From an uncultured Porticoccus sp. (GTDB lineage: Bacteria > Pseudomonadota > Gammaproteobacteria > Pseudomonadales > Porticoccaceae), in NCBI RefSeq assembly GCF_913061305.1, contig NZ_CAJXST010000004.1:124001-188000 (forward strand): DNA of 64,000 nucleotides, in the 5' to 3' direction. The notes below the pieces were generated by a model that saw only the letters and a program-made list of their open reading frames with translations, had not been told where the DNA came from and made no database searches. This document shows positions 30,000 to 47,506 of the stretch, piece after piece. The position numbers were made by a program, and so were the translations under genes. The number at the start of each line of letters is the position of its first letter. Position 1 is the stretch's first letter.

Positions 30000-31730
30000 A
30001 TGACGAAACCCCATATCACCCGACGTATTGCTGACCTGACCCGGTGCGAATTCAGCCCGTCGGTTCCACCGTTATTGCAGCGCATTTATGCGGCCCGGGG
30101 GGCCGAAAACGACCGGGCGCTGGCGCGAACGCTCCAGGGGCTGCCGGGCCCGGATGGCCTGCTCGGGATCGACGAGGCAGTCGTGCTGCTCGAACAGGCC
30201 ATCAATGAACAGCAATCTGTGCTCATTATCGGCGACTTTGATGCCGACGGTGCCACCAGCACGGCGCTGACCCTGCTGGCGCTGAGGGCCATGGGATTTT
30301 CCCGGGTGAGCTATATCGTGCCCAACCGCTTCGAATACGGCTATGGCCTCACCCCGGAAATTGTCGAACTGGCCAAACAGCAAACACCGGATCTGATTAT
30401 TACGGTGGATAACGGTATTTCCAGTGTCAGCGGTGTCGAGGCCGCAAAAGCCGCCGGCATCAAAGTGCTGATCACCGATCACCACCTGCCCGGCGCACAA
30501 CTGCCCGAGGCGGATGCCATCGTCAATCCCAACCAGCACGGCTGCGAATTTCCCGGCAAAAACCTCGCCGGGGTGGGAGTGGTGTTCTATCTGATGAGTG
30601 CCCTCCGCAAGCGACTCCGTGAGCGCGGCTGGTTTGCAGATCAGCAACGGGTGGAACCGAATATGGCCGAATGGCTCGATTTGGTGGCGCTGGGCACCGT
30701 GGCCGATGTGGTCACTCTAGATACGATCAATCGCATTCTGGTCTACCAGGGATTACAGCGTATCCGGGCGGGCAAATCCCGGCCGGGCATCCAGGCGCTG
30801 CTCGACCTCGCGGGTCGCGATTGCAGTCGCCTGGTGGCATCTGATCTCGGCTTTGCCATCGGACCCCGGCTCAATGCAGCCGGCCGGCTGGATGACATGT
30901 CCATCGGCATCCAGTGTCTGCTTGAAACCGACCCCTATCTGGCCCGGGAATACGCCCTGCAACTGGATGAACTGAACCGCGACCGCCGGGTGATCGAAGC
31001 CGACATGCAGCGGGAGGCGCTGGTGGCGCTGGAGCAATTGCACCTGGACGAACAGCAGTTACCCTGGGGGCTGTGCCTGTTCGATGCCAACTGGCATCAG
31101 GGGGTGGTGGGTCTGCTGGCCTCGCGCATCAAGGACAGGGTGCATCGTCCGGTCATCGTCTTTGCCGATGCCGACAACGGCGAATACAAAGGGTCTGCCC
31201 GCTCCATCAAGGGCCTGCATATCCGTGATGCCCTGGACGCAGTCGCCAGCCGCCACCCGGGCCTGATCAGTAAATTCGGCGGCCACGCCATGGCGGCAGG
31301 GCTGAGTCTCCCAAAAGATCACTACCTGAAATTTGTCGATGCGTTTGATGCAGAGGTACGTCGATTGCTCACCCCGGCGGATCTGGAAGCAGAAATCCTC
31401 ACCGACGGCGTGCTCAATCCCGACCAGCTCAGTATCGATACCGCCCAGCTGCTGCGGGAGGCTGGCCCCTGGGGGCAGCACTTCCCCGAACCGCTGTTCG
31501 AGGGCGAATTTCATATCGTGCAACAGCGCATCGTCGGCGAAAAACACCTCAAACTGGTACTGGCAACCGACGCATCAAAAAGTCAGCTCATCGACGCCAT
31601 CGCGTTCAATGTGGATACCGACCGCTGGCCCAACCCGGCGGCCGATCAGGTCCAACTGATTTATAAACTGGATATCAACCTGTGGCGGGGCAGGGAGTCG
31701 ATGCAGTTGCTGGTGGAGCATCTCGATTAA
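30000..31730 (+). CDS. recJ: Single-stranded-DNA exonuclease RecJ
   Basis: 576 residues, a 5'-3' ssDNA exonuclease of the DHH family used in recombination and mismatch repair. DHH motifs are IIGDFDADGATST, TVDNGISS, ITDHHLPGA, and DHHA1/other signatures GPRLNAAGRLDDM and KFGGHAMAAGLSL. The frame is open from TTG 29958; ATG 30000 (MTKPHITRR) gives the length of E. coli RecJ. The last 50 bases are repeated, diverged, at 46331-46380. In related bacteria recJ is followed by prfB and lysS; here 22.5 kb intervene. Confidence 0.96.
   Translation: MTKPHITRRIADLTRCEFSPSVPPLLQRIYAARGAENDRALARTLQGLPGPDGLLGIDEAVVLLEQAINEQQSVLIIGDFDADGATSTALTLLALRAMGFSRVSYIVPNRFEYGYGLTPEIVELAKQQTPDLIITVDNGISSVSGVEAAKAAGIKVLITDHHLPGAQLPEADAIVNPNQHGCEFPGKNLAGVGVVFYLMSALRKRLRERGWFADQQRVEPNMAEWLDLVALGTVADVVTLDTINRILVYQGLQRIRAGKSRPGIQALLDLAGRDCSRLVASDLGFAIGPRLNAAGRLDDMSIGIQCLLETDPYLAREYALQLDELNRDRRVIEADMQREALVALEQLHLDEQQLPWGLCLFDANWHQGVVGLLASRIKDRVHRPVIVFADADNGEYKGSARSIKGLHIRDALDAVASRHPGLISKFGGHAMAAGLSLPKDHYLKFVDAFDAEVRRLLTPADLEAEILTDGVLNPDQLSIDTAQLLREAGPWGQHFPEPLFEGEFHIVQQRIVGEKHLKLVLATDASKSQLIDAIAFNVDTDRWPNPAADQVQLIYKLDINLWRGRESMQLLVEHLD
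31681..31730 (+). repeat. recJ 3'-end, left copy of direct repeat
   Basis: The last 50 bases of recJ, from within the Leu codon through the TAA. Position-for-position 44 of 50 bases match 46331-46380 beyond the CRISPR array. Upstream of the repeat similarity ends abruptly; downstream the two sequences are unrelated. Likely the left boundary of the CRISPR-Cas island. Confidence 0.8.
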
Positions 31731-31802
31731 AGCCGGCAGGTTGCACTTTTTTCGCAAAGACCATTAAATCCAGAGAAGGGTCAATTTCAGGGATGAGTAC
31801 AC

Positions 31803-32783
31803 GTGGACAAATTCGACCGCATTCAGCACCTCCACCGAATTTTTAAAAACCGCCGCTTGCCGGTGCCCGTTCGGGTGTTGGCGGAAGAACTAGAGTGCTC
31901 CGAGCGCAACGTCAAACGCCTGCTGGAGACCATGCAGCTGGTGGATGCCCCACTGGTATATGACGAGTCGGGCCGCGGCTGGCGCTATGAAAAAAATGAG
32001 GGCGACCTCTTTGAACTGCCCGGCCTGTGGCTGACCGGTGATGAGCTGCAATCACTGAGCCTGCTGCTCAGCTTGCTGGAGCAACTGGGCAACGGCATCC
32101 TCAACGACGAAATCGTCGTGATCGAAAAAGAGGTTACCAAACTGCTCAATGCTCGGGGTATCGACCCCAGCGCCTTCGCCGATCGCGTTCGCGTCCTGCC
32201 CATCGCCCACCGCCAACTGCCGGGAACCCTTTTCAACAAAGTCAGCGAAGCGCTGCTCAGAAGCAAGCGTATCCGCATTGGTTACCTCAGCTATCGGGGC
32301 GAAAAAACCAGCCGCGACATCAGCCCACAAACCTTGGTCCATTACCGGGAGAACTGGTACATCGACGCCTGGTGCCACCTCAGGAATGAATTGCGCACCT
32401 TTTCCATTGCCCGCGTCAGCAGCGCCGAAATCCTCAAGACCAACAGCAAGGTCATTGCCAAAGAGACCCTGCGCGAACACTTCGCCAGCAGCTTTGGCAT
32501 CTTTTCGGGCAAACCAAAACACACCGCAAGGCTACGTTTTTCAAGGGAAATCGCCCGCGAAATCGCCTTGCAGGAATGGCACCCGCAACAGCAGGGCGAG
32601 TGGGATGGCAGGGAATACCTGCTCACCATTCCTTATTCAGACGACCGCGAACTGATCCAGGATTTACTCCGCCATACGCCCCATGTGTATGTGGAGGCCC
32701 CGGTAAAGCTGCGTAAAAAGCTGCAAAACAAACTGCAACAGGGATTAGAAAGGCAGCTCGGCAAAGGGCTGGGGTGGCTGTAG
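31803..32783 (+). CDS. WYL-domain transcriptional regulator (YafY-type)
   Basis: 326 residues. An N-terminal winged helix-turn-helix (residues 5-65; VRVLAEELECSERNVKRLLETM) precedes a WYL domain (about 150-220, including IRIGYLSYRGEK, the WYIDAWCHLRNELRTF core and FSIARVSSAEIL) and a C-terminal WCX-type domain. WYL proteins bind nucleic acid or nucleotide ligands and many (BrxR, CapW) repress defence operons. It starts at GTG 31803, 73 bp after recJ, as the first gene in the island. A role in controlling the cas operon is inferred from position; base composition is host-like. Confidence 0.85.
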   Translation: MDKFDRIQHLHRIFKNRRLPVPVRVLAEELECSERNVKRLLETMQLVDAPLVYDESGRGWRYEKNEGDLFELPGLWLTGDELQSLSLLLSLLEQLGNGILNDEIVVIEKEVTKLLNARGIDPSAFADRVRVLPIAHRQLPGTLFNKVSEALLRSKRIRIGYLSYRGEKTSRDISPQTLVHYRENWYIDAWCHLRNELRTFSIARVSSAEILKTNSKVIAKETLREHFASSFGIFSGKPKHTARLRFSREIAREIALQEWHPQQQGEWDGREYLLTIPYSDDRELIQDLLRHTPHVYVEAPVKLRKKLQNKLQQGLERQLGKGLGWL

Positions 32784-32874
32784 CAATACTGGATAAATGT
32801 CCAAGACATGTTTTGTCACCACAAGGCGATATAGTCGCAAGCAGTAGCAAGTAAACGTCAGGGAGGCATTCGGC

Positions 32875-33129
32875 ATGACCATCGACAGCGAAGCGGCGAA
32901 CAACCTCAGACCGGTTACAAGTGCGGCATGTCTGTTCTCCGTGCCGGGAACGCTGTATCTCGCCATGGCGGATAAAAGCCTGATGGTGCTTTTGGCCCTA
33001 CCGATATTCTTTGCCGCCGCTTTTGTGTATTGCCTGGTGTTTTTCTTGCTGGCTTTGAGCGCGCGGGAGGTTATCTCGTCAATAGGGATATTAATAGAGT
33101 CCCTAATGGAAAGGGCGGAGAAGGGATGA
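32875..33129 (+). CDS. Small two-helix membrane protein, unknown
   Basis: 84 residues with GGGAGG nine bases before ATG 32875, a good ribosome site. Hydrophobic segments at about 20-45 (SLMVLLALPIFFAAAFVYCL) run nearly continuously into a second (VFFLLALSAREVI), then a short charged tail (ESLMERAEKG). No family recognised. It lies between the WYL regulator and cas1, same strand. Possibly an accessory membrane protein or toxin-like peptide of the island, but nothing in the sequence shows this. Confidence 0.55.
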   Translation: MTIDSEAANNLRPVTSAACLFSVPGTLYLAMADKSLMVLLALPIFFAAAFVYCLVFFLLALSAREVISSIGILIESLMERAEKG

Positions 33130-33176
33130 AAAGCGGTGATCTTGTTTTTCAAAAAAACCTTTGGTCGAAGTCATAT

Positions 33177-33394
33177 TCACAAATTGAGCGCAATAGCCGG
33201 TGCCATCTGCGCCATGTCGCTGTAGAAGCTCCAGCCGAGTGCGTAAGGCGCTAGTGATGTACCAAGAAATAGAACGCGAGCAACAGCTGGTGCTGTATAT
33301 ATCACCAGGACGAGTTTTGTCTGTGCCTTTTTGTATATTTCGTTTTCACTCGGATTAAGAATTTAAAAAATTGAGTAAATAGGTTTTTGAACAT
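33177..33394 (-). pseudogene. Frameshifted small membrane-protein ORF antisense to cas1 leader
   Basis: Reverse-strand frame of 61 codons open from 33362 to a TGA at 33177-33179, with coding-like codons and protein-like content such as LFLGTSLAPYALGWSFYSD and a hydrophobic stretch ahead of it. No start codon fits at the N-terminus of this frame (TAA at 33363-33365). An ATG at 33394 in the adjacent frame (MFKNLFTQFFKF) would join it if one base were lost or the ribosome slipped near 33358, giving a product of about 72 residues. No clear ribosome site. Read as a decayed gene, or possibly chance. Confidence 0.35.
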
Positions 33395-33426
33395 GGTAGT
33401 TATATTAAAAAAGTTGGGTAAAGGAT

Positions 33427-34386
33427 ATGGAACAACTGACTGATCTAAAGGCTATTCTGCATTCCAAGCGTGCGAATATTTATTACCTTGAAAAATGCCG
33501 GGTGATGCAGAAGGACGGTCGCGTGCTCTACCTGACGGAAGCTAAAAATGAAAATCAGTATTGGAATATTCCCATTGCCAATACCACATGCCTGTTACTG
33601 GGAACCGGGACTTCGGTTACACAGGCAGCAATGCGAATGCTGGCCTCGGCAGGTGTGCTTGTCGGATTTTGTGGCGGCGGCGGGACGCCCTTGTTGATGG
33701 CCAATGAAATTGAATGGCTCAATCCACAAAGTGAATATCGGCCGACTGAATATATACAAGGGTGGATGCAGTTCTGGTTTGATGATGACCGACGACTTCA
33801 AGCTGCAAAACAATTTCAGCAAGAAAGGATAAAGTATCTGCAAAAAGTATGGGGCAAGGACCGAGACCTACAGACAGAAGGATTCAATATAGCTGACCCA
33901 ATTTTACAAAAGTCTCTCGACAACAATCTGCAAAAAGTGTCAGTGGCCGGGAAAGTTGGCGCGTTGCTACAAGGTGAAGCAGAACTTACCAAACAGCTCT
34001 ACAAGTTTGCTGCTCATGCCAGCAGCTACGGTAACTTTACCCGTGAGCGTGAAGCCATAGATACCGCCAATACCTTTCTCAATCATGGTAATTATCTGGC
34101 CTACGGATTAGCAGCAACAACGCTCTGGGTTCTGGGCATTCCTCACGGCTTTGCTGTGATGCACGGTAAGACTCGTCGTGGGGCGTTGGTGTTTGACGTT
34201 GCTGATTTGGTGAAAGACGCATTGATCCTGCCATGGGCGTTCATCTGTGCAAAAGAAAAAAGTACAGAACAAGAATTTCGCCAGCAATGTTTACAGGCAT
34301 TTACTAACCATAACGCATTGGAATTTATGTTTGATCAGGTCAAAGATATCGCCCTTAAGACCGATTGGGAGACAGTAATAGCATGA
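33427..34386 (+). CDS. cas1: CRISPR-associated endonuclease Cas1 (type I-F)
   Basis: 319 residues. Integrase of new spacers. The sequence is type I-F specific: ILHSKRANIYYLEKCRVM at the start, NIPIANTTCLLLGTGTSVTQ, FCGGGGTPLLMANEIEWL and HGNYLAYGLAATTLWVLGIPHG. Catalytic residues are visible as Glu184 (LQGEAELTK), His246 (VMHGKTRRG) and Asp257/260 (LVFDVADLVKD). The start is ATG 33427 with AAGGA very close by. Its TGA overlaps cas2-3 (ATGA). No convincing sigma-70 promoter was found in the 297 bp upstream. Confidence 0.97.
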   Translation: MEQLTDLKAILHSKRANIYYLEKCRVMQKDGRVLYLTEAKNENQYWNIPIANTTCLLLGTGTSVTQAAMRMLASAGVLVGFCGGGGTPLLMANEIEWLNPQSEYRPTEYIQGWMQFWFDDDRRLQAAKQFQQERIKYLQKVWGKDRDLQTEGFNIADPILQKSLDNNLQKVSVAGKVGALLQGEAELTKQLYKFAAHASSYGNFTREREAIDTANTFLNHGNYLAYGLAATTLWVLGIPHGFAVMHGKTRRGALVFDVADLVKDALILPWAFICAKEKSTEQEFRQQCLQAFTNHNALEFMFDQVKDIALKTDWETVIA

Positions 34387-37300
34387 TGGTCACGTTTGTC
34401 TCTCAATGCGAGAAAAAAGCCCTCGCCCGTTCCCGGCGGGTGCTGGATGCTTTTGCCGACCGCATAGGTGATAACACCTGGCAGACGGTGATTACACAGG
34501 AAGGTTTACTGGCCGTAAAAAAGCTGCTGCGGAAGACTGCCAGTAAAAATACAGCTGTGAGTTGCCATTGGATACGGAGCCGGTCGCGGACGGAGTTAGT
34601 TTGGGTGGTGGGGAATAAAAATAAATTTAATAACCAAGGTGCTGTACCGGTCAATAGTACATCCACCAATCGGTTTTATCGTGACGATTTGCAGGATTGG
34701 CAGTTTCTCCCAACTATCAGATCGCTGACGTGTTTAGCCGCATTACTGCACGACTGGGGCAAAGCCAGCGCCCGCTTCCAGCAAAAACTTGCCAAAAACT
34801 ATAAAGGCCACGGGGCAGACAGATTACGTCACGAGTGGGTTTCGTGCTTATTGCTCAAAGCGCTGATTTCCAACACGGGCAACCCGAATGTGGACGAGGG
34901 TTGGTTAACAACGTTAAAAGATGGAAAGATTGATGAAGATGCCCTCAGGACATCCCTATGCAAAAGTAGTGAAAAGCCATTAGCCGATTTGCCGAGTGTC
35001 GCAAAATTAGTGGCCTGGTTGATTGTTACCCACCATCGGCTTCCCTTACCAGACGATACAAAATCGGGTAGTTCGTGTACCAGCCTTGAAGGCATGCTTG
35101 GCATGATCGACAAAAGCTGGGGGTATGAAAATAAGGTAGACGATCTTGCATCCTGTTTGGAATTCCCCGAGGGGCTGTTAACCAACTCCAGCAAATGGCT
35201 GTCGCAAATCAAACGTTGGTCAGCCAAGTTACTGGATTCACAAGACGTTATTGCTCAGGCCATCGACAACGGCAGCTACCGCGTATTGCTGCACCATGCC
35301 CGCTTGTCTTTGATGCTGGGCGATCACTACTTTTCATCCCTTGATATTGACCAGACCCGCAATTGGCCCAATGCCACTGGCTTGCTTGCCAACACCCAAA
35401 AAAACAAATCACCCAAGCAGGCTCTGGATCAGCACTTGGTCGGTGTTTACGAAAGTGCCAAAAATATCGTCGGCAAATTGCCCGTTATCGAGAACGGCCT
35501 GGAACCTAGCTTTAATACTGTGGAATTAAAGCGTAAAAGCCCAACTTCCTACGCTTGGCAAGATACAGCCACCAAAAAAGTACGTGACTGGCGTAAAGCA
35601 TGCAACGATACGCGCAAAGGCTTTTTCGCGGTCAATATGGCCAGCACTGGCTGCGGTAAAACCTTTGCCAATGCGAAAGCCATGATGGCCCTCTCTGAAG
35701 ACGGCGATAGCCTGCGTTATATCCTAGCTTTGGGGCTGCGCACCCTTACATTGCAGACCGGCGACGAATACCGCGAGCGAATCTTCAAAAAAAGTGATGG
35801 CTGCGACCTGGCGGTATTGATTGGTTCTAAAGCGATTGCGGATTTGCACTATCAAAACAAACAGGAACAAACGCAAGAGCAAGTGAACCATGGCTCGGAA
35901 TCTGTCGAAACATTGTTGGCCGATTCCGACGAAGTTGTCTACCAAGGTGAGCTGCCCGAAGAAGGTTTAACCACGGTTTTACAGAGTTATAAAGACAGGC
36001 AGTTACTCTACGCCCCGGTTTTGGCCTGCACTATTGACCATATCATTGCCGCAACAGAAACCACTCGCGGTGGGCGTTACATTCTGCCTGCGTTGCGTTT
36101 GCTGTCGTCGGATTTGGTCATTGATGAGGTGGATGACTTCACCGGCGGTGACCTAATTGCCATTGGCCGCCTGATTCATCTGGCAGGCATGCTGGGGCGT
36201 AAAGTGATGATTTCCTCGGCGACCATTCCACCGGCAATGGCGGAAGGCTATTTCAATGCCTACCAGCAAGGCTGGTTACTCTATTGTAAAACCCGTAACG
36301 CCGGCCCTCTGGTGGGTTGCGCCTGGATCGACGAGTTTTCTACGCAGGTCGAAGATATCGGTAATCAAGACCAGGCAGCTCAGGACTATCGGAAAATTCA
36401 TGACCGATATATTGAGAAGCGAGTAGAGCAGTTAGGCAAGCAAGCGGCGAAGCGCAAAGCCATTGTGATTGATTGCTCGCCAGCTATGTGGGGTAATGAT
36501 GAGCACGATCAGTCAGGCATCGCCAATAAAAAAGGAGTCTGGTTCAACCGAATAGCCGCCACCACTCTTGATAGGCACGAGCAACACCATACGATAGATA
36601 GTCAAACCGACTTAAAGGTTTCTTTTGGGGTGGTACGGATTGCCAATATCCAACCCTGTGTGCAGCTTACCCGCTTTTTGTTGGGTTATGACTGGCCTGA
36701 AAATACCGAGGTGCGAGTGATGGCTTACCACAGCAGACAAGTACTGCTGCTGCGCCACGAACAGGAAAAGCATCTTGATGGCGTGTTAAAACGTAAAGAA
36801 AAACAGGGCGAGCAACCACAAGCCTTTAATAACGAGCTGATTCGCAATCACCTAGATAGCATTGCCAATCAGCAACCCAAAGTGAAAAACCTGTTGTTTA
36901 TCCTGGTCGCCACCCCTGTTGAAGAAGTGGGTCGGGATCATGACTTCGATTGGGCCGTTATCGAACCCTCATCGTACCGCTCCATTATTCAATTGGCAGG
37001 ACGGGTCAAACGGCACCGTGACGGTGAGGTAGAACATCCTAATATCGGTATTCTGCAATACAACTGGCGAACCCTGAAAGATGGTGACAAACCAAGAGAA
37101 CCGCGGTTTTGCAGACCGGGGTATGAAGTGGCTGGTAAGTTACCGAAAGTAAAAGCAGATGGGACAAAAAACTATGGCGCTATGCAAAGCCACGATCTTT
37201 TTAAGGTGGTGGATGAGACGCTGATACATACCCGACTGGATGCCACGCCAAGGATTCAGGAAAGGCAAAAAAGCAGTCAAACACAGATGGCCTTGCTGGA

Positions 37301-37772
37301 GCATGCAGCCATAGATAGCCAACTGACCTATTACGAGGGCAAAGGCCCGGAAACCCTGCAAGGCTATATTCAGTGGTACTGGTATCTCACTGCTTTACCG
37401 CAAATCCTCAACCGCTTTCGCCAAAGTACAAAAAGCGTTCAGCTTTACCGTGTGACTAATGGTAGCGGTGACGCTTGGTTTACCGAGCGCGATGTCAAAG
37501 GGGAATTTAGTTACCTCAACACCGGTGAGTTTGCTCGCCATGACATTGTCTATCAAATCGCCACCACAGAGTTTACAAAGGTTCAGTCAGCACGGCTTTG
37601 GCTACAGCGCGATTATCTGCAGTTGCTACAGGCACAAAGTGAGTTACGCGAAATATCATTGAATAAGGCTGCAATCCTCTACGGAGAAATCAGCCTGGAT
37701 GTTTATCCAAATGCCATCAACAAAGCGTATGAATACAACGATCAGTTAGGTCTGTATGAAAAGGAAGAATGA
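34383..37772 (+). CDS. cas3: Cas2-Cas3 fusion, nuclease-helicase (type I-F)
   Basis: 1,129 residues. The fusion that defines type I-F: an N-terminal Cas2-like domain (about 1-95; MMVTFVSQCEKKALARSRRVLDAF), an HD nuclease domain with LAALLHDWGKASARF (His-Asp near residue 122) and THHRLPLP, then a superfamily-2 helicase. Helicase motifs are ASTGCGKTFA (Walker A, about 421), DEVDDF (about 580) and SSATIPP (motif III), with QLAGRVKRHRDGE near motif VI. It degrades DNA recruited by Cascade and partners with Cas1. The start is ATG 34383, overlapping the cas1 stop by four bases; the frame also has an upstream in-frame codon at 34365. Confidence 0.97.
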   Translation: MMVTFVSQCEKKALARSRRVLDAFADRIGDNTWQTVITQEGLLAVKKLLRKTASKNTAVSCHWIRSRSRTELVWVVGNKNKFNNQGAVPVNSTSTNRFYRDDLQDWQFLPTIRSLTCLAALLHDWGKASARFQQKLAKNYKGHGADRLRHEWVSCLLLKALISNTGNPNVDEGWLTTLKDGKIDEDALRTSLCKSSEKPLADLPSVAKLVAWLIVTHHRLPLPDDTKSGSSCTSLEGMLGMIDKSWGYENKVDDLASCLEFPEGLLTNSSKWLSQIKRWSAKLLDSQDVIAQAIDNGSYRVLLHHARLSLMLGDHYFSSLDIDQTRNWPNATGLLANTQKNKSPKQALDQHLVGVYESAKNIVGKLPVIENGLEPSFNTVELKRKSPTSYAWQDTATKKVRDWRKACNDTRKGFFAVNMASTGCGKTFANAKAMMALSEDGDSLRYILALGLRTLTLQTGDEYRERIFKKSDGCDLAVLIGSKAIADLHYQNKQEQTQEQVNHGSESVETLLADSDEVVYQGELPEEGLTTVLQSYKDRQLLYAPVLACTIDHIIAATETTRGGRYILPALRLLSSDLVIDEVDDFTGGDLIAIGRLIHLAGMLGRKVMISSATIPPAMAEGYFNAYQQGWLLYCKTRNAGPLVGCAWIDEFSTQVEDIGNQDQAAQDYRKIHDRYIEKRVEQLGKQAAKRKAIVIDCSPAMWGNDEHDQSGIANKKGVWFNRIAATTLDRHEQHHTIDSQTDLKVSFGVVRIANIQPCVQLTRFLLGYDWPENTEVRVMAYHSRQVLLLRHEQEKHLDGVLKRKEKQGEQPQAFNNELIRNHLDSIANQQPKVKNLLFILVATPVEEVGRDHDFDWAVIEPSSYRSIIQLAGRVKRHRDGEVEHPNIGILQYNWRTLKDGDKPREPRFCRPGYEVAGKLPKVKADGTKNYGAMQSHDLFKVVDETLIHTRLDATPRIQERQKSSQTQMALLEHAAIDSQLTYYEGKGPETLQGYIQWYWYLTALPQILNRFRQSTKSVQLYRVTNGSGDAWFTERDVKGEFSYLNTGEFARHDIVYQIATTEFTKVQSARLWLQRDYLQLLQAQSELREISLNKAAILYGEISLDVYPNAINKAYEYNDQLGLYEKEE

Positions 37773-37773
37773 T

Positions 37774-39339
37774 ATGGCAGAGGAAAAGAATGAGATCATC
37801 AAATTCTTAGATAAGATGAAACGATCTATAAAAAAGAGCACAGACGATAAAAGGCTTGAGGACGAGCACTGCAGGAGTGATTGTTACGAGTTTATTTTTG
37901 GAAATTCATCAAAGGCTGTTGAATACAAAGATATTATTTTGTTTTTGCTTGGTGGAACGAAAAATATCCGGTTCCCAAGAAATGAACGTGATTATTATTT
38001 GTTGCTGCTTCTCGGTATCGAAATAAAGCCAAAGCTCACATTTAAGGATGCTTGTGATATATCCCACCCAATTGTTTTTGATGTTTTAAATGGATTGGAT
38101 ATAGATTCAATCCAATCTCTAGAAATCATTAAAATGGTAAAGCTTCATAATCGTGATTGTCTTAGTTATTTCCAGCTTTTCGAAAGTGCTATTGATTTAA
38201 ACGAATTTTCTATGACTGGCATAGTTGAGTTGGCAGAAAAAATAGTCGGAGATAGTAAATATGGGACGGTAATTACCCATTCATCTAAAATGACCAATCC
38301 AGCGTGTAAATATCCTAGGATATATTTTGACAGTGGTGAAAGATTAACGGACGGTTTAATTCGATCTGGTAACGTTATTACTGATTTCGATTTGCACATC
38401 GATGCATCCAAGCTGAAAGTCTTTAAATTCCTTGCACTCCCTGTCGAGAAAGACACTCTATTTGATCGTCTAAAGAGAGGTGATTTCGAGCCTTTGCAGG
38501 CAATATTTGGTGTTGATGATCAAACGGCAGAGGCCTGGTACGATCAGCTAAAACCTTGCATAACATCTCAAGACCATCGCACGCATGACCTTATTAAGCA
38601 GGTTTTGTTTCCTGTTGAAAATAGTTACCACCAGCTATCTTTGTTACAACCATCTGGTCTGGTTTTTAAGCTAAAAGAGCGAGTTGATCAAATAAATTCA
38701 CGTTCAGTGGATGCTTATTTGGGAAGAAAGTCCCAAAAAGATGATAAGTACTATGCTAATGGATTTAAAACAGTTCCAAACATTACTGTTACCAGGCACG
38801 GAGGCGAACACCCTAAAAATATAAGCGGTTTAAATAATAAGTATCAAAGCTGCTATTTGCTTGACTCACGTCCACCGTTTATAGAAAAAAGGGATGTGAA
38901 ACTCCCCACCAAAGATTTTTTTATCCAAAGCCTGCGTTTCTACGATTGTAGAGACATTCTGGAGCGGCTCGATAAGGTCTTCAAAATCGAGCGTGACGGC
39001 CAAATTCCACTGGATAATATTCGTAAGGGCAGAGATCGCTGCCTTGGCGACATCTTGGATGTGATCCTGCAGAAAATGATGGCGTTGAGAGACGTCTCAA
39101 CTCAACAGTATTGGCCGGAAACCAGCAAGTTACCGGCTTGGCAAACGTTCTGGCTATGTGACCAATATAAAGATCAGCGACTCCAGGAGGATGACTGGCT
39201 GTACAGCCTCTGTGACCAGATTGCCCGATGGGTAGCCAACGCTTACAAAGACACTATCAAACACCCTGTCATGCTAGGCGAGGCCGAGCGCCAGTACATT
39301 AAAGAATTTATAGAAGACAACAAGGAGGTGTTGAGATGA
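37774..39339 (+). CDS. csy1: Cas8f (Csy1), enlarged N-terminus
   Basis: 521 residues, against about 434 in the P. aeruginosa protein as I recall it. Large subunit of the I-F Csy complex that reads the PAM. Conserved blocks are SGERLTDGLIRSGNV, KLKVFKFLALPVE (about residue 212; about 116 in P. aeruginosa), PVENSYHQLSLLQPS, GGEHPKNISGLNN and a C-terminal helical region. About 95 extra residues lie in the N-terminal part. The first two thirds are strikingly AT-rich (20 of 60 GC at 37921-37980, 17 of 60 at 38101-38160), the end is not (29 of 60 at 39061-39120). The start is one base after the cas2-3 stop; AAGGAAGA precedes it. Confidence 0.93.
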   Translation: MAEEKNEIIKFLDKMKRSIKKSTDDKRLEDEHCRSDCYEFIFGNSSKAVEYKDIILFLLGGTKNIRFPRNERDYYLLLLLGIEIKPKLTFKDACDISHPIVFDVLNGLDIDSIQSLEIIKMVKLHNRDCLSYFQLFESAIDLNEFSMTGIVELAEKIVGDSKYGTVITHSSKMTNPACKYPRIYFDSGERLTDGLIRSGNVITDFDLHIDASKLKVFKFLALPVEKDTLFDRLKRGDFEPLQAIFGVDDQTAEAWYDQLKPCITSQDHRTHDLIKQVLFPVENSYHQLSLLQPSGLVFKLKERVDQINSRSVDAYLGRKSQKDDKYYANGFKTVPNITVTRHGGEHPKNISGLNNKYQSCYLLDSRPPFIEKRDVKLPTKDFFIQSLRFYDCRDILERLDKVFKIERDGQIPLDNIRKGRDRCLGDILDVILQKMMALRDVSTQQYWPETSKLPAWQTFWLCDQYKDQRLQEDDWLYSLCDQIARWVANAYKDTIKHPVMLGEAERQYIKEFIEDNKEVLR

Positions 39340-40277
39340 CCGAAAACCTGATTCTTCTGCCTCATATAAAGGTGCAAAACGCCAACGCCTTATCCAGCCC
39401 TTTCACCATTGGTTTTCCGGCTATGACGGCCTGGCTGGGGGCTGTGCATGCATTGCAGCGTAAATTGAATATGCAGGATTCCCCCGTTGATTTTTCTGCC
39501 GTTGGTGTCGTGGTGCATCACTTCGATTTGCAAACCTATAAAGGCCCAGGTGATTTTGTGCATTCCATTATTGGCACGGGCAACCCACTGGAACCCAAGT
39601 CCGAAAAAGATAAGCCAAAAGGTAATGCTGTTCGCTCTTCCTTTATCGAAGAGGCTCGCTGTCATTTGGAGGCGAGTTTGGTTATCGAATACAGCGGCAT
39701 TGAGGCCCAGGATGAATCGCAAATGTTGGAGCGATTACATCAATTAATGCTCGGCAATATGAAGCTGGCAGGTGGCGATATTTTGGGCTGTGGTGTACCT
39801 GAAATCGTACGTGATTTTCGGGTAACTAAACGCAAGTTAATGCCTGGCTATGCCTTGGTCGAGCGCCGCGATTTAATGCAGGAGGCCATGGTGAAGGGGC
39901 AAGACGCCATGGACGCAATGCTTGATTATCTAGCCATACATCACACCTCCAGTAAAGGCGAGAAGGACGGAGAGGAGCGTGTCCACTGGCAAAGTCAACG
40001 CAAAGCCACCGGGCCAGATGGTCAGAGAGGCTGGATTGTACCTATTGCCACCGGCTTTCATGGTGTTGGTGATCTGGACAGTGCACTTAACCAACGCGAC
40101 CCGGATACGCCACATCGCTTTGCCGAAAGTGTAGTGACCCTGGGTGAATTCAAAATGCCTTACCGCTTGGATTCACCCGAAGACTTACTCTGGCGCTACC
40201 AGGTAGAGCCAGAAAACAACCTTTATCTCTGCGTTCAACAAGCATTTGAACCTGAAACCACCCACAGCGATTACTAA
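39336..40277 (+). CDS. csy2: Cas5f (Csy2)
   Basis: 313 residues. Csy complex subunit that caps the crRNA 5' handle together with Cas8f. The start NLILLPHIKVQNANALSSPFTIGFPAMTAWLGAVHALQR is the Csy2 signature, and GGDILG and GWIVPIATGFHGVGDL follow. It overlaps csy1 by four bases (ATGA) and csy3 starts 20 bp downstream with AAGGAG. Confidence 0.95.
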   Translation: MTENLILLPHIKVQNANALSSPFTIGFPAMTAWLGAVHALQRKLNMQDSPVDFSAVGVVVHHFDLQTYKGPGDFVHSIIGTGNPLEPKSEKDKPKGNAVRSSFIEEARCHLEASLVIEYSGIEAQDESQMLERLHQLMLGNMKLAGGDILGCGVPEIVRDFRVTKRKLMPGYALVERRDLMQEAMVKGQDAMDAMLDYLAIHHTSSKGEKDGEERVHWQSQRKATGPDGQRGWIVPIATGFHGVGDLDSALNQRDPDTPHRFAESVVTLGEFKMPYRLDSPEDLLWRYQVEPENNLYLCVQQAFEPETTHSDY

Positions 40278-40297
40278 TTTATTCAAGGAGAAGCACC

Positions 40298-41332
40298 ATG
40301 GCTAAGAAAGAAAATACCGCATCTGTATTGGCGTTTGAGAAAAAATTGGTTCCCTCTGATGGCTATATCTACGGCTGCCAATGGGAGAACAAAGACGATG
40401 CAACTCCGCTCTCATTAAATGAGAAATCAGTGCGGGGGACGATTTCAAACCGTTTTGGGAAAAAAGATAAGGTTTTGGCTGACGATCCAATGGCTCTTGG
40501 TAAAAAGGTTGAGAGTCCTAACCTACAAACTGTCGATGCCTGCTCATTAGGGCCCCAGCAGGACACCCTGAAACTGCATTTCACGCTCAAGGTGCTGGGC
40601 GGATTGAAGCAGCCTTCAGCCTGTAATAACGCCGCGTTTAAACAAGGTTATCAGCAAGCTGTAAGCAATTACCTTGACACTGAGGGCATGAGAGAGCTTG
40701 CCAAGCGTTATGCGCTGAATATCGCTAATGCTCGGTTTTTATGGCGTAACCGCTTTGGTGCAGAAACTATTATGGTGCAAGTTAAAGCCTTGAATAAAGG
40801 CGCTGAACAAAGCTGGGAATTTGATGCACTGGAGTTGAACCCCCGGGATATGGAGACCACAACGGCCGATATCGATAGTCTTGCAGGACGTATTGCTGCT
40901 GCATTAACCAGTGACCACGACTTTTTGATGCTTGATATCAGCTGTTATGCCAAAGTGGGTAAAGCTCAGGATGTTTACCCCAGCGAAGAGCTGGTGCTGG
41001 ATAAGGGCAAAGGCAATAAAAGTAAAATCCTATATGCGGTTGATGGGATTGCAGCTATGCATTCCCAAAAAATCGGTAATGCCCTCAGAACAGTTGATAC
41101 TTGGTACCCTGAACACGGCGACTCGGTAGCATCTGCTGGACCCATTGCGATTGAACCCTATGGTGCAGTCACCAATTTGGGGAAAGCCTTTAGAACACCT
41201 GCCGACAAACAAGACTTCTATACCTTTTTTGATAACTGGGCACGTGGTGGCGAGTTATCACGAGTTGAGGATGAACATTACGTGATGGCTGTGTTGGTGC
41301 GTGGTGGTGTATTTGGCGAAAGTGATAAATAA
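40298..41332 (+). CDS. csy3: Cas7f (Csy3)
   Basis: 344 residues. Backbone subunit; six copies coat the crRNA. Signature motifs are ASVLAFEKKLVPSDGYIYGCQWEN at the start, ANARFLWRNRFGAE, and a C-terminal ITN-like AVTNLGKAFRTP with GGELSRVEDEHYVMAVLVRGGVFGE. A good AAGGAG ribosome site fits with its high required dosage. Confidence 0.96.
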   Translation: MAKKENTASVLAFEKKLVPSDGYIYGCQWENKDDATPLSLNEKSVRGTISNRFGKKDKVLADDPMALGKKVESPNLQTVDACSLGPQQDTLKLHFTLKVLGGLKQPSACNNAAFKQGYQQAVSNYLDTEGMRELAKRYALNIANARFLWRNRFGAETIMVQVKALNKGAEQSWEFDALELNPRDMETTTADIDSLAGRIAAALTSDHDFLMLDISCYAKVGKAQDVYPSEELVLDKGKGNKSKILYAVDGIAAMHSQKIGNALRTVDTWYPEHGDSVASAGPIAIEPYGAVTNLGKAFRTPADKQDFYTFFDNWARGGELSRVEDEHYVMAVLVRGGVFGESDK

Positions 41333-41343
41333 CAGGTGATGAC

Positions 41344-41895
41344 ATGAACTATTACCTCGATATTCACATTTTGCCGGACCCAGAGTTTAAAGAAACGGTA
41401 TTAATGAATGCTCTACACACCAAACTCCACAAAGCACTGTGCGACTTGGAGTCCACCACTATCGGAGTCAGCTTCCCCAATAATGAGCGTACGCTCGGTG
41501 ACCGTTTGCGATTGCATGGCTCAGCCGAGGTGTTAGACAAGCTTCAGTGCCAAAGCTGGATCGGCGGCATGAGTGGCTACTGCCTGCAAAGCGATATTCA
41601 GCCCGTGCCGTCAGATTCAAAGTTCCGTAACATCTCGCGCCAACAACCGACGATGAGTCCGGCAAAGCTTAAACGGCTATTTAAGCGTGGTTCTATAACA
41701 GACGATGAGGTTAAGCAGTACAAAGTTAAAATGTTTGCCAAAGGATTGGATAACCCATATTTGGAAATAGTGAGCGGTTCAAACGGTCAAAGACATAGGC
41801 GCTATATTAAATTTGGTCCCCTGTTGGATAACCCTATTAAAGGTGCTTTTGACCAGTTCGGTCTTTCCAAAATCGCTACCATTCCCTGGTTTTAA
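41344..41895 (+). CDS. csy4: Cas6f (Csy4), crRNA endoribonuclease
   Basis: 183 residues. It cuts the repeat RNA 3' of its hairpin and stays bound. N-terminal MNYYLDIHILPDPEF, catalytic His29 in ALHTKLHKAL, the arginine-rich groove helix (SPAKLKRLFKRG), and the terminal GLSKIATIPWF all match the family; His29 aligns with the catalytic His of P. aeruginosa Csy4. Last cas gene; no terminator follows, so transcription may continue into the toxin-antitoxin pair. Confidence 0.96.
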   Translation: MNYYLDIHILPDPEFKETVLMNALHTKLHKALCDLESTTIGVSFPNNERTLGDRLRLHGSAEVLDKLQCQSWIGGMSGYCLQSDIQPVPSDSKFRNISRQQPTMSPAKLKRLFKRGSITDDEVKQYKVKMFAKGLDNPYLEIVSGSNGQRHRRYIKFGPLLDNPIKGAFDQFGLSKIATIPWF

Positions 41896-41964
41896 ATCCG
41901 TCGATTTTGCCGGGTTGGACCAGTAAATAAGGATGAGTACCTGGCGATTGGCCAGAAACACGGG

Positions 41965-41993
41965 TTGGATAATCATATGATCGGCACTATAAT
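41965..41993 (+). promoter_or_regulatory. Sigma-70 promoter of the toxin-antitoxin pair
   Basis: TTGGAT (41965-41970), a 17-bp spacer, TATAAT (41988-41993). Near-consensus and 32 bp ahead of the antitoxin start, so the pair need not depend on cas transcription. Confidence 0.7.
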
Positions 41994-42014
41994 TCTGGCT
42001 AGTCTGTCTAGAAT
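41992..42014. promoter_or_regulatory. Inverted repeat, likely antitoxin operator
   Basis: ATTCT ... CTAG, 5 bases, CTAG, AAT: imperfect palindrome overlapping the -10 region. Antitoxins of the Phd/YefM family bind such sites to repress their own promoter. AGGAGAG (42015-42021) follows as the ribosome site. Confidence 0.55.
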
Positions 42015-42025
42015 AGGAGAGAAAG

Positions 42026-42274
42026 ATGACCGCATGGCAATTACAGGATGCTAAAAACCGCTTCAGTGCTCTGGTAAAAGCGGCAGAGAGCGAAGGGCCG
42101 CAGGTAGTTACCGTTCATGGTAAGGACAAGGCGGTATTACTTTCGGTCGAGGCTTACCAGCAATTGATACAGCGCAAAGGTAGTTTGCTGGACTTTTTTC
42201 AGAGTTCTCCGTGGGCCAAAACCGATATTGAAATTTCCCGCTCTCGGGATACAGGACGGGAAATCGAGCTGTGA
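42026..42274 (+). CDS. Phd/YefM-type antitoxin
   Basis: 82 residues. The start MTAWQLQDAKNRFSALVKAA is the Phd/YefM DNA-binding fold, with GKDKAVLLSVEAYQQL typical of the family and a flexible charged tail that would wrap the toxin. Its TGA overlaps the toxin's GTG (GTGA), so the pair is coupled. Own promoter and operator upstream. Confidence 0.9.
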   Translation: MTAWQLQDAKNRFSALVKAAESEGPQVVTVHGKDKAVLLSVEAYQQLIQRKGSLLDFFQSSPWAKTDIEISRSRDTGREIEL

Positions 42275-42696
42275 ACTATCTACTCGATACCTGCCTTCTG
42301 TCTGAGTTGCGCAAACCGGAACCGGATACAGGTGTGGTGGCATGGATTGCCGACATTGATGAGGCTAGGTTGTTTATCAGCGTTCTGAGCTTGGGCGAAA
42401 TCCAGAAAGGCGTCGCAAAACTGGAAAATGGTCGACGTAGGAACGCCTTGCAACACTGGCTCGAACAGGACTTGCTGTGCCGGTTTGCACAGAGGGTTTT
42501 ACCCTTTGATCTCGATATGGCGCTGGAATGGGGGTTGGCCAGCGCGGAGAGCGAAAGCCGGGGCAGACCGGCTCCGGTTATCGATGCGTTGCTAGCAGTA
42601 ACGGCGATAGCTCACAATCTCACCTTGGTGACACGCAATGACAAGGATTTTTCGGATTTTCCCGTAAAGGTGTTGAACCCGTGGGGCCAAAATTAA
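42271..42696 (+). CDS. PIN-domain toxin (VapC/FitB type)
   Basis: 141 residues, a ribonuclease toxin. Acidic metal-binding residues are in place: Asp6 (LLDT), Glu43 (LGEIQKG), Asp105 (VIDALLA) and Asp124 in TRNDKDF. It is paired with a Phd/YefM antitoxin, a common hybrid. It starts at GTG 42271 and lies between csy4 and the array leader, so the array can be inherited with it. RNA target unknown. Confidence 0.9.
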   Translation: MNYLLDTCLLSELRKPEPDTGVVAWIADIDEARLFISVLSLGEIQKGVAKLENGRRRNALQHWLEQDLLCRFAQRVLPFDLDMALEWGLASAESESRGRPAPVIDALLAVTAIAHNLTLVTRNDKDFSDFPVKVLNPWGQN

Positions 42697-42986
42697 ATTG
42701 GATCTGGCAGGGCATCCGGGAAATCAGGATGTAATCCTGCACATATTGTGGCACTGAATATTTCCAGCAATGACCTCTCACAAAACTTCAACTTTTCCAC
42801 TCCAAAGGGGTGGCTCTATATCAGGTAGTTTACGTTACCCACCTTGCCCTCCAGACCCAATGTTTTTCGTTCTTTAAAAATCAATATAAAAATTAAATAG
42901 TTACAAGACCACTAAAAATCATTGGGTAACACGATGGTTTTAAGCTAACTAATTGTTGTAGCTATTTTTTTGTGCTTTATACTTCA
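42697..42986 (+). promoter_or_regulatory. CRISPR leader region
   Basis: 290 bp from the toxin stop to the first repeat. The part nearest the array (42860-42986) is strongly AT-rich (for instance TCTTTAAAAATCAATA), as in active leaders where IHF bends DNA for Cas1-2/3 integration. Earlier there are two hairpins without T-runs: CAGGAT/ATCCTG (42725-42739) and CCACTCC/GGGGTGG (42797-42813). No exact IHF site was found. The degenerate repeat at the far end supports this side as the leader. Confidence 0.75.
42956..42983 (+). promoter_or_regulatory. Candidate pre-crRNA promoter
   Basis: TTGTAG (42956-42961), a 16-bp spacer, TATACT (42978-42983). The -10 sits only three bases before the first repeat, so transcription would begin inside it. 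Possible but not certain; a promoter further upstream is also feasible. Confidence 0.35.
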
Positions 42987-45900
42987 GTTCACTGCCGCAC
43001 AGGCAGCTTAGAAAAAGCGCAGAGAGTATGCCCAAGGCATCATTGAGTTCACTGCCGCACAGGCAGCTTAGAAACGCGTGTTCGGGGTAAGACTGGGCCT
43101 GACTGCGTTCACTGCCGCACAGGCAGCTTAGAAATGTCTCTGCCGGGTGTCCTAAAAGGGGCCAGCGTTCACTGCCGCACAGGCAGCTTAGAAATTCGAT
43201 CAGTCCGTATATCTCAAGGTCAAAACGTTCACTGCCGCACAGGCAGCTTAGAAAGATCCAATACCTGGCGATACGTCAGCCTGTGCGTTCACTGCCGCAC
43301 AGGCAGCTTAGAAATGTGTTCACGGAGCGGCCAGAAAATACCAAGTGTTCACTGCCGCACAGGCAGCTTAGAAAATAAAGTTCAAGGCTGATGGCAGCAT
43401 CGACCAGTTCACTGCCGCACAGGCAGCTTAGAAATGCAGCCGCTCAGTATAGGCAGCCTTTGATATGTTCACTGCCGCACAGGCAGCTTAGAAAAAAACG
43501 CAGTTGGATTGTATGAGTCAGCTGATGTTCACTGCCGCACAGGCAGCTTAGAAATATGGGTCGCGGAGCCAGTGGTCTGTAGTCATGTTCACTGCCGCAC
43601 AGGCAGCTTAGAAAATCACACTGAAGCGGCGGCGGCCCTGGGATACGTTCACTGCCGCACAGGCAGCTTAGAAACGGCTGCGGATTTGGCTGACGGAAAA
43701 ATACGGGTTCACTGCCGCACAGGCAGCTTAGAAATGCACAGATAGGGCCCCGCTATCCGCATCAGAGTTCACTGCCGCACAGGCAGCTTAGAAATGAATA
43801 AATACGGCGGTGGGCCATGGTTTGATGTTCACTGCCGCACAGGCAGCTTAGAAAACCAAAACTGACGGTGGTGGCGCTGCCGGTGGGTTCACTGCCGCAC
43901 AGGCAGCTTAGAAACCCATGGTGCGCGGCTGGTGCGGGTGGAAACGTTCACTGCCGCACAGGCAGCTTAGAAATGTTTATGCTGCAAGCAAAGTGAGGGT
44001 TAAAAGTTCACTGCCGCACAGGCAGCTTAGAAAATTCTGTTTGATTACCCTGGACATTACTTTAAGTTCACTGCCGCACAGGCAGCTTAGAAATGCCTGA
44101 ATGGGCACTACCTAAACCAAGGGATGTTCACTGCCGCACAGGCAGCTTAGAAATCAGGTCAGCGCCCCTCAGGTTAGCGCCCCTCGTTCACTGCCGCACA
44201 GGCAGCTTAGAAAAGCGTCTACGACAACTTTGCCTTCCACATGGAGTTCACTGCCGCACAGGCAGCTTAGAAAAGATTAAGAAGTCTGTCCGCCTCATTC
44301 TTTGCGTTCACTGCCGCACAGGCAGCTTAGAAAACTTAGCGAAGTCGATAGAGTCAAGGCAGCTAGTTCACTGCCGCACAGGCAGCTTAGAAATTCGCAA
44401 GGGACTTGAGAGGCTGGTAGTTAACGTTCACTGCCGCACAGGCAGCTTAGAAAATCGAGAACAACCGCGTTCTATCCAGCCCGCCGTTCACTGCCGCACA
44501 GGCAGCTTAGAAAATCCAAGTTGTAGCTCGTCGTAGCCCTTGGAAGTTCACTGCCGCACAGGCAGCTTAGAAAACGACATTGAACAAACCAGCCGCAAAT
44601 GATTTGTTCACTGCCGCACAGGCAGCTTAGAAATGCTCAAGCCCGGCCAGCGCCTCGGTGCTGATGTTCACTGCCGCACAGGCAGCTTAGAAATGCCCAG
44701 CGGCGGCGCGGTGACCAATATCACCGTTCACTGCCGCACAGGCAGCTTAGAAAAACACTGATGGTGCTCCGGCGTTTGCTGCTGCGTTCACTGCCGCACA
44801 GGCAGCTTAGAAATGAAAAGGGAGTAGCCGCGATACTGGGCAGCGGTTCACTGCCGCACAGGCAGCTTAGAAAAAACAGGAAGCCCAGCACCAGGAAGTT
44901 GATAAGTTCACTGCCGCACAGGCAGCTTAGAAAACCATCTCCTTGACCGCCTCAATAAAAGCGGTGTTCACTGCCGCACAGGCAGCTTAGAAAAACAGAA
45001 TGTAAAAATGCTGATCTTTCATGCTGTTCACTGCCGCACAGGCAGCTTAGAAAAGTGACATCAACGCGGGAAACCTTCCATAAAGGTTCACTGCCGCACA
45101 GGCAGCTTAGAAAGCTGGCGCATCTGGCTCCTGCGCTCTGCCTCCGTTCACTGCCGCACAGGCAGCTTAGAAAACGATGGCAATCAACGTGATGAGGCCG
45201 GTAACGTTCACTGCCGCACAGGCAGCTTAGAAAACGCTGACCTTTACCTGTGAATAATCAATTGCGTTCACTGCCGCACAGGCAGCTTAGAAAATTTTTT
45301 GCCCTTCTCAGTTGATAAAGTACGGGTTCACTGCCGCACAGGCAGCTTAGAAATGAACTTCCTATATCCGTGCATTCAAGGCCCGGTTCACTGCCGCACA
45401 GGCAGCTTAGAAAACCAGCGCCGCCGCCGGTAGTTTTGCCACCATGTTCACTGCCGCACAGGCAGCTTAGAAAAAGCAACCTGCTAGATCAGCTTATCGG
45501 CTGGCGTTCACTGCCGCACAGGCAGCTTAGAAATCCAATCCGTATAACAATTCATGGCAGCGGATGTTCACTGCCGCACAGGCAGCTTAGAAAAAGGACA
45601 CAAGAGCGGCATCCGTTGCCGTAGTGTTCACTGCCGCACAGGCAGCTTAGAAAATGCCCCTCCCTAGGGCGATTTTGAGGTATTCGTTCACTGCCGCACA
45701 GGCAGCTTAGAAAAGCAGGCGAATCTCTTTGCCCACGAACTGAACGTTCACTGCCGCACAGGCAGCTTAGAAATATAACAGCCAGCGCCTGGCTTTTAAA
45801 CTCATGTTCACTGCCGCACAGGCAGCTTAGAAAGCACAGTTCGTCACGCTGGCGAGTACGGCAATGTTCACTGCCGCACAGGCAGCTTAGAAACGCTGCG

Positions 45901-46313
45901 CACCTGTTCACCGGTAACGGTATTGGTTCACTGCCGCACAGGCAGCTTAGAAATGGTACATCGGTTAATCTTGCGTCTGTGGTCAGTTCACTGCCGCACA
46001 GGCAGCTTAGAAAATGAAAACAGGGCAAGAGAACGATTACAGTGTGTTCACTGCCGCACAGGCAGCTTAGAAATCTGAGCTGTCTATTACCATAACGAAT
46101 GCTGAGTTCACTGCCGCACAGGCAGCTTAGAAAAGACCACAGCAGCACGGCCAAAACCTTTGTGGGTTCACTGCCGCACAGGCAGCTTAGAAACAAAAAG
46201 GACGAGCCAGAGCCGCCCGCCTCAGGTTCACTGCCGCACAGGCAGCTTAGAAATTTCTCAAGTCCCTCGACCCACGCAGACCTCAGTTCACTGCCGCACA
46301 GGCAGCGTAGAAA
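42987..46313 (+). CRISPR. Type I-F CRISPR array, 56 repeats, 55 spacers
   Basis: 28-bp repeats starting GTTCACTGCC, with stem CTGCC/GGCAG around loop GCACA and ending CTTAGAAA, which is the type I-F repeat with an 8-nt handle. 55 copies are identical; the last (46286-46313) has one T to G change in the sequence after GGCAGC. The unit is 60 bp. All spacers are 32 bp except one of 31 bp (43915-43945), which shifts the phase by one base. No spacer duplicated by eye. Orientation: leader on the left, degenerate terminal repeat on the right, transcription on the plus strand. Confidence 0.98.
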
Positions 46314-46330
46314 AGTCTGCAAATGCACTT

Positions 46331-46380
46331 TGTGGCGGGGCAAGGAGTCGATGCCGTTGCTGGTAGAGCACCTCGGCTAA
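46331..46380 (+). repeat. recJ 3'-end, right copy of direct repeat
   Basis: Fifty bases 17 bp after the last CRISPR repeat match the end of recJ at 44 of 50 positions. The reading frame and stop are conserved: codons read LWRGKESM then PLLVEHLG and TAA, against LWRGRESM and QLLVEHLD in recJ. Several of the differences are synonymous. The copy has no start and is not expected to be expressed as RecJ; it marks the right boundary of the island. Confidence 0.8.
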
Positions 46381-46540
46381 CGTGGTATACCAGATAGCGT
46401 TGAGAAGTTGATAGGTCCCATAATGGTGTTGTAGTCGTCGGAGGGTAGTACTATTGTCGTCAGCAAGAAGGTGTGTCAGGTAGAATTCCCCGCCTTCTGT
46501 TTGATAGCTCTGTAATGTTTATCTCCTCAAAGGATCGCAA

Positions 46541-47029
46541 ATGAAGTGTTCTGCAGGGTCTGCCTCCAACCCGGCCAGAGTGTTGCTGCTACCCGTTGCG
46601 CTATTGCTGGCCGGTTTGTTGTTGCTCTCATCACCCGCGAAATCCCAGCCAGAGCGGACGCTGTTCGACCGGCTCGGTGGCGTGTATCCGATTGCTCTGA
46701 CGGTGAATGATCTGGTGGATCGCCTGTACCTGAACAAGACGCTGAACGCGAACCCCAGGATAAAAAAAGTTCATGAAAGTATCGGCTCAAGAGAAAGTGC
46801 CAAAGTGGCGTTGACGGCCTGGGCGGTACAGTATACCGGCGGTCCGGTGCTGTTCCCTGTTCAGATCGGTGAAGTGGATGACGCACTGAAAATCACCGAT
46901 GGGGAGTTTGATGTAATTCTCGACGAATGCGTGGTGTCGTTCAATAACGCGAAATTCCCGCAGCGTGAAGTGGGCGAGTTATTGAAATTGGTTGAAGGCT
47001 TCCGCTCTCAGGTGGTGATTCAAGGCTGA
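46541..47029 (+). CDS. Exported truncated-globin-like protein
   Basis: 162 residues with AAAGGA before ATG 46541. An N-terminal signal peptide or anchor (about residues 12-32, VLLLPVALLLAGLLLL) precedes a truncated-haemoglobin fold: TLFDRLGGVYPIALTVNDLVDRL, AVQYTGGPVLF, ALKITDGEFDVIL and REVGELLKLVEGF. In group 1 globins the proximal His comes just before G-I-T; here the aligned position is Asp (EVDDALKIT). Haem binding through that His is thus unlikely. It is the first gene outside the island on the right. Confidence 0.75.
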   Translation: MKCSAGSASNPARVLLLPVALLLAGLLLLSSPAKSQPERTLFDRLGGVYPIALTVNDLVDRLYLNKTLNANPRIKKVHESIGSRESAKVALTAWAVQYTGGPVLFPVQIGEVDDALKITDGEFDVILDECVVSFNNAKFPQREVGELLKLVEGFRSQVVIQG

Positions 47030-47122: not shown

Positions 47123-47500
47123 TCAGGCCGCCAGGGGTTGATGGCTACCGGGTGTGGAAAACAGCTCGATCACGTACAGCGCCGTGGTTTTATCCAGTGA
47201 TGTGGCAACGGTTTCTACCATGCCGGTGGGCAATATGCACACCACGTCGTAGCTGTGTTCGCCCATTCGCAGGCAGTAGTAGGCGCTATTATTGCTGCTC
47301 TTGTAGTTCATCAGGCACAGAATTTCATCCAGATAAACGTTGTAGGTGTGATCATCGTGGTCCTTGATATAGGCATGATCCTGGTCGCAGTAGCACACCT
47401 GGCCCAGAAATGTGGCTGGGTGCGCGGACTTGGGATGTTTGGGGTCGGTGACCTCAACGGTCATGCCCCTGGTTAACAGGTGATTAAAATGCTTTGTCAT
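47123..47500 (-). CDS. Hypothetical protein, unknown
   Basis: 125 residues. The start at ATG 47500 is favoured over ATG 47506 because GCGAGGA sits six bases before it. Sequence has a central C/H/D-rich segment (VCYCDQDHAYIKDHDDHTYNVY) and ends in a low-complexity tail. No family recognised; no signal peptide or membrane segment. Faces the globin-like gene convergently. Confidence 0.6.
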   Translation of the reverse strand: MTKHFNHLLTRGMTVEVTDPKHPKSAHPATFLGQVCYCDQDHAYIKDHDDHTYNVYLDEILCLMNYKSSNNSAYYCLRMGEHSYDVVCILPTGMVETVATSLDKTTALYVIELFSTPGSHQPLAA

Positions 47501-47506
47501 GGTCAT

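Follow-up and report, generated by a model that had tools for sequence, protein, structure and literature searches.

A truncated-haemoglobin-like protein with a probable export segment and without the proximal histidine in a Porticoccus-like genus

The globin gene and its surroundings

The stretch of DNA analysed here, called the window, is 64,000 nucleotides long and comes from an uncultured Porticoccus sp. It contains a gene for a small protein that resembles the truncated haemoglobins (trHbs). The features of this gene are as follows:

46541..47029, + strand: open reading frame of 162 amino acids, trHb-like and without the proximal histidine (ATG at 46541, TGA at 47027-47029)
46541..46645, + strand: residues 1-35, probable Sec signal peptide or signal anchor (from hydropathy, with cleavage placed by rule)
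46655..47014, + strand: residues 39-158, 2/2 (truncated) globin domain (sub-threshold Pfam match, AlphaFold2 model, trHbs of the PDB with Z up to 17.7)
46772..46774, + strand: CAT codon of His78, the sole histidine of the protein, in an extra helix before helix E
46844..46894, + strand: residues 102-118, eroded EF-loop/F-helix (proximal) segment with Y105F, G107V, M109I, H113D and one residue missing
46877..46879, + strand: GAT codon of Asp113, at the proximal F8 position

The N terminus of the protein is markedly hydrophobic. Residues 14-30 reach a Kyte-Doolittle mean of 2.78 over 17 residues, against 1.11 or less beyond residue 40. The pattern SPAKS-Q that follows this stretch fits a Sec signal peptide under the usual -3/-1 rule, and cleavage near residue 35 is plausible. 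The segment is probably a Sec signal peptide, or else an uncleaved signal anchor, and the protein would accordingly be an exported one. Its long hydrophobic stretch would also suit a globin that stays uncleaved in the membrane and serves the envelope as a domain for protein interaction or sensing. This is, however, quite improbable, given the plausible cleavage site, the free variation among the genomes of the sequence before residue 14, and the absence of both an output domain and a recognised signalling neighbour. Of the proposals made in an earlier note on this DNA, a signal- or anchor-like N terminus is supported by hydropathy and residue pattern, whereas a sensor role finds no support, as the protein is a single domain of 162 residues and no signalling gene was recognised among the neighbours examined.

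The globin gene is a solitary one, flanked on one side by a CRISPR array and on the other by a converging gene for a 127-residue protein of no Pfam family. Further downstream are an ABC-F ATPase, presumably Uup-like, a GDSL esterase, which we take to be TesA-like, and an ABC ATPase with an FtsX-type permease. The order from the globin through the 127-residue protein, the ABC-F protein and the esterase to the ABC ATPase is common to all four genomes in which the globin was found, and the similarity of the other three to the window at the DNA level extends into the permease gene. Among the neighbours examined, nothing indicates haem, a signalling output, a partner or a ligand. They do not suggest themselves as functional partners either, and another genome (G007) has the same cluster with no globin match in the 10 kb examined. 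A scan for promoters and terminators gave results close to chance. The gene for the 127-residue protein (47123-47506, minus strand; L109) occurs in 6 of the 17 genomes of the genus and forms a tandem pair in one of them (G003).

Upstream, about 14.8 kb of DNA separate the globin gene from a gene at 29979-31724, which we assume to be recJ-like. Between the two lie a type I-F cas set (33427-41892; Cas1, Cas2-3 and Csy1-4), a PIN-domain gene (42271-42696) and the CRISPR array of 56 repeats (42987-46313). The recJ-like gene of G009 is immediately followed by the globin gene, while in G012 the interval is taken up by other cargo and another copy of the recJ-like 3' end. The region between the recJ-like and globin genes (29979-46540 of the window) looks like an insertion hot spot. 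The globin gene itself is not cargo of the CRISPR island; this was ruled out because G009 and G012 have the gene and the same downstream genes, with the island absent from the 18 kb examined in each.

Relationship to the truncated haemoglobins

The similarity of the protein to the trHbs is distant by family profile. The Pfam family Bac_globin (PF01152) spans the entire domain (residues 40-156) with 15.1 bits, below the gathering cut-off of 21, where relatives such as L020, L021 and L005 score 39.7, 28.6 and 44.3; NCBIfam gave no match to the protein at E values up to 1. A phmmer search of the PDB returned five chains, with E values from 5e-4 to 3e-3, and all of them are, by their descriptions, variants of the group 1 trHb of Shewanella benthica. 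Through tblastn against plasmid records, 12 matches were obtained, four of which were examined further. The best, from Halomarina, is 40.5% identical over residues 40-159 (E 1e-23), and the relation to the trHbs is thus secured.

The predicted structure points the same way. An AlphaFold2 model built from seven aligned sequences has a mean pLDDT of 85.7 and a pTM of 0.80, which amounts to a confident prediction of the 2/2 globin fold. With Foldseek and VIA-align, the trHb of S. benthica was the closest among the matches listed (Z 17.7, rmsd 2.0 over 115 residues), and Mycobacterium tuberculosis trHbN gave Z 17.1 and an rmsd of 1.7 over 118 residues. The window protein would share this fold with S. 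benthica trHbN (PDB 8ugz) and M. tuberculosis trHbN (PDB 1s56), as it shares the LxxRLGG and GGP motifs. It differs from these group 1 proteins in its probable export segment, in its Pfam score below the cut-off and in the lack of the proximal histidine (reported as His69 in the S. benthica protein; PMC11904497) along with the surrounding YxGxxMxxxH.

The earlier reading of the protein as a group 1 trHb therefore holds as to descent, on which phmmer, tblastn, both trees described below and the structure matches agree. The three motifs on which it leaned are all present in the translation, LFDRLGG at residues 41-47, YTGGP at 98-102 and ITDGEFD at 118-124. A non-globin family with a better fit, which would have spoken against it, was found neither by Pfam and NCBIfam nor by Foldseek and VIA-align.

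Further relatives came from profile searches of genomes at the level of the class (369), the order (390) and the phylum (398), and of 85 genomes from the order to which G410 belongs. Copies of the altered globin are present in 4 of the 17 genomes of the genus, the window included (94-100% identity); the three further copies, all in Porticoccus-like genomes, are 94-95% identical to the window protein, and the reading frame is intact in all four. Outside this clade, the closest proteins are the Halomarina and Roseovarius trHbs and relatives in genomes of the same class (L020, L021, L025, L115 and L116), with 40% identity for L020 and 35% for L021 in alignment A2. These relatives have the same extra helix with His78, the same Trp94 and the same GGP, but they have kept the F8 histidine and the proximal motif. 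A hydrophobic N-terminal segment is absent from L020 and L021 but present in rhizobial relatives such as L023, so that export may date from the stem of the clade or from before it.

Loss of the proximal histidine and its motif

The alignment comprises 84 rows, namely the four clade members, 79 rows with histidine at F8 and one fragment, L027, which is unaligned and whose translation shows HAHL. At F8, aspartate is found in 4/4 clade rows and histidine in 79/79 aligned rows outside the clade. Two of the latter, L014 and L078, contain in-frame stops and were excluded from the 77 relatives used for column conservation and from the tree. Three loci read apart from the 84 rows (L115, L116 and L117, the last with a stop inside) have histidine at F8 as well. 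Seven duplicate loci were dropped (L010, L013, L018, L019, L024, L052 and L053), and six profile-search matches without a locus, L112 and three matches to trHbs of a second type were left out.

The absence of the proximal histidine does not depend on this alignment, as His78 is the only histidine in the whole protein and the F-helix region is devoid of any. An alignment artefact at F8 is ruled out on this ground, and a sequencing error by the agreement of four genomes on aspartate.

The change goes well beyond a single residue. When a column is called conserved if one residue occupies it in at least 85% of the 77 relatives (a threshold chosen by us), 13 columns qualify: L41, R44, L45, G46, G47, G100, G101, P102, Y105, G107, M109, H113 and L134. 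Of these, the first eight are unchanged in the clade, which carries Y105F, G107V, M109I, H113D and L134F at the rest and has an EF loop one residue shorter. Thus, none of the four columns in the EF-loop/F-helix motif is kept, against eight of the nine elsewhere (Fisher p = 0.007, over 13 columns that are mutually non-independent). On the E-helix side, the clade retains Lys88, Trp94 and GGP.

The structure model lends weak support to a dismantled proximal site. Its F block (model residues 71-80) has the lowest pLDDT of the model, 58, against 72 in the histidine-bearing L097 modelled with the same seven loci. This contrast is weak because the EF loop is reported to be flexible in trHbNs generally (PMC11904497), because the adjoining block 61-70 differs in the opposite direction (83 for the window protein against 77 for the L097 control), and because only seven sequences were aligned. 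One of the five control models was poor (62.7).

In the tree, the four proteins form a clade supported at 100/100, the stem of which measures 1.63 changes per site. This clade is nested within the histidine-bearing trHbs, together with L020, L021 and L025 (7 rows, 100/97). When the EF/F columns were removed and two more relatives added, the nesting was kept (9 rows, 97/89; stem 1.48), and both trees are flagged for long branches that may attract. As the clade lies among histidine-bearing trHbs in both, the loss of the proximal histidine is, on these trees, derived.

The altered globin is held by purifying selection in the four genomes. For the mature part, dN/dS is 0.037-0.061 in the six pairs within the clade, so the gene is no pseudogene. 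The first 37 codons are looser; their dN is 0 for one pair and ranges from 0.09 to 0.14 for the other five, and it exceeds that of the rest in 5/6 pairs. The substitution of the expected histidine by aspartate, first noted from the window alone, is thus confirmed (GAT at codon 113, the sole histidine at 78). Two of the checks proposed at the time, a family alignment and a search for a clade with the same loss, had a clear outcome: the loss is shared by 4/4 clade members, and what has gone is the whole proximal motif, in a protein under purifying selection.

These values also bear on a second explanation, by which a globin gene without function is decaying and heading to loss. The sub-threshold Pfam score, the long stem, the restriction of the gene to 4 of the 17 genomes that represent the genus and a broken related gene in G217 would all suit such a process. 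Against it stand the low dN/dS, the intact frame in all four copies and the retention of the gene in the clade genome G000, which is 99.6% complete and yielded no second trHb with PF01152, the protein itself, profile A2 or the L017 protein as query. The three sibling genomes (G005, G009 and G012) have two other trHbs each. Decay is, therefore, hardly credible. As for the related gene in G217, the second half of the locus L096 (G217:C80) holds a broken trHb of the Halomarina/Roseovarius type with a changed frame and an in-frame stop, in which the proximal histidine can still be read.

Possible roles of the altered globin

The proximal histidine anchors the haem in trHbs. It is constant throughout the aligned relatives and is gone here from a protein under strong selection elsewhere in its length. 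The explanation that we favour, with moderate confidence, is that a trHb has shed the wall which anchors haem and is now a haem-free binding or scaffold protein in the envelope. It would have started as a haem-binding group 1 trHb of the Halomarina/Roseovarius-like subfamily, in the ancestor of part of one Porticoccus-like genus. The proximal histidine would then have been lost together with the proximal-wall motif Y-x-G-x-x-M-x-x-x-H, after which the sequence stopped changing. The 2/2 globin sandwich may have been retained as a scaffold around a cavity that is free of haem and mainly hydrophobic, a claim drawn from the side chains in the alignment and not from model coordinates. Asp113 would place an acidic residue at the end of the cavity where the iron was formerly anchored. 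Since the N terminus resembles a signal or anchor, the site of action would be the cell envelope, presumably either within the periplasm or at the membrane. By analogy with other non-haem globins, its most likely activity there is the binding of a non-haem ligand or a partner protein.

A different possibility is that haem is still bound and that its ligation has moved to His78, or else to Asp113 or a tyrosine. The product would then be a haem protein that is exported and whose ligation is inverted or weak, with a role in, for example, haem transfer or scavenging. We hold this to be rather unlikely. In its favour, His78 is the only histidine of the protein and is identical in 4/4 clade members, in 8/8 of the nearest relatives with an F8 histidine and in three further relatives, and Lys88, Trp94 and GGP on the E-helix side are kept. 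Haem sites of globins can also be rebuilt, as in HGbRL, in which the distal and proximal sides are reported to come from different subunits, with Lys(E10) as a ligand; by its abstract, however, HGbRL offers no example of ligation without a proximal histidine (PMC4476040). The conservation of His78 needs no role as a ligand, because the relatives have both His78 and the F8 histidine. At the same position, 13/13 exported canonical rows have arginine or methionine, and L099, from a viral contig, has serine. The loss of the proximal wall motif as well would be unexpected if haem were retained. A specific form, in which His78 of the pre-E helix holds the haem from the distal side only, the proximal side is dismantled and the protein is possibly a periplasmic haem donor or scavenger, appears doubtful.

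Globins that do without haem are known from several bacteria. The globin domains of Bacillus RsbR are reported to lack the haem residues, and crystals of the one from B. anthracis contained a fatty acid (PMC4976288). According to PMC11617747, the N-domain of mycobacterial MabR is a non-haem globin with a 2/2 fold. Photoglobins and bilin-binding globins are further bacterial examples (PMC10151467). In so far as these sources describe them, such proteins have in common with the window protein a globin fold (predicted here) without the haem-ligating residues, which would act in the manner of a ligand-binding or sensor fold, while in the latter His78 remains a possible ligand. They are domains of larger regulators or pigment proteins, whereas the window protein is stand-alone and probably exported; it consists of one domain, with no fusion to STAS, GGDEF-like/HTH or B12 domains. 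None of these non-haem families was present among the Pfam matches or the 50 matches listed per structure search, an absence that proves nothing.

Two other traits of the protein have precedents as well. A Guillardia globin without the F8 histidine is in print (PMC4101818), and the pentahaem cytochromes of cable bacteria, discussed as periplasmic, carry trHb domains (PMC11976967), so that exported trHb domains are, by that account, already known. Among the matches listed in a search of titles and abstract openings of the open-access literature, there was no exported, trHb-derived globin without the proximal histidine. As the lack of haem, the export of a trHb domain and a missing F8 histidine are each already known from globins, it is their combination that looks new. 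Its scope is narrow, namely four genomes of one genus. The clade and its relatives, at about 40% identity with and without the haem anchor, offer a clean natural comparison for the way in which a haem protein may turn into a different kind of protein. Annotations of 'truncated haemoglobin' need a check of F8.

Two scans of viral contigs using broader trHb profiles confirmed no relative. Rhizobium-type trHbs (L091, L099 and L100) do lie on IMG/VR contigs of 20-249 kb, the viral nature of which is putative, and the IMG/VR contig of L097 and a bacterial contig (G624:C99) are both 18,116 bases long. By alignment only, L097, L099 and L100 all have histidine at F8.

Canonical trHbs with a signal-peptide-like N terminus, such as L005, L007, L022 and L054, occur in Porticoccus-like and other proteobacteria. 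They resemble the window protein in joining such an N terminus to a trHb domain, but their proximal histidine and motif are present and they branch elsewhere in the tree. Within the genus, trHbs that look exported and have kept the histidine occur in four other genomes (L005, L006, L008 and L009). Two of these trHbs, in G008 and G016, each form a tandem with a short trHb (L008/L016 and L009/L014), the two matches of a pair being about 80-90 bases apart.
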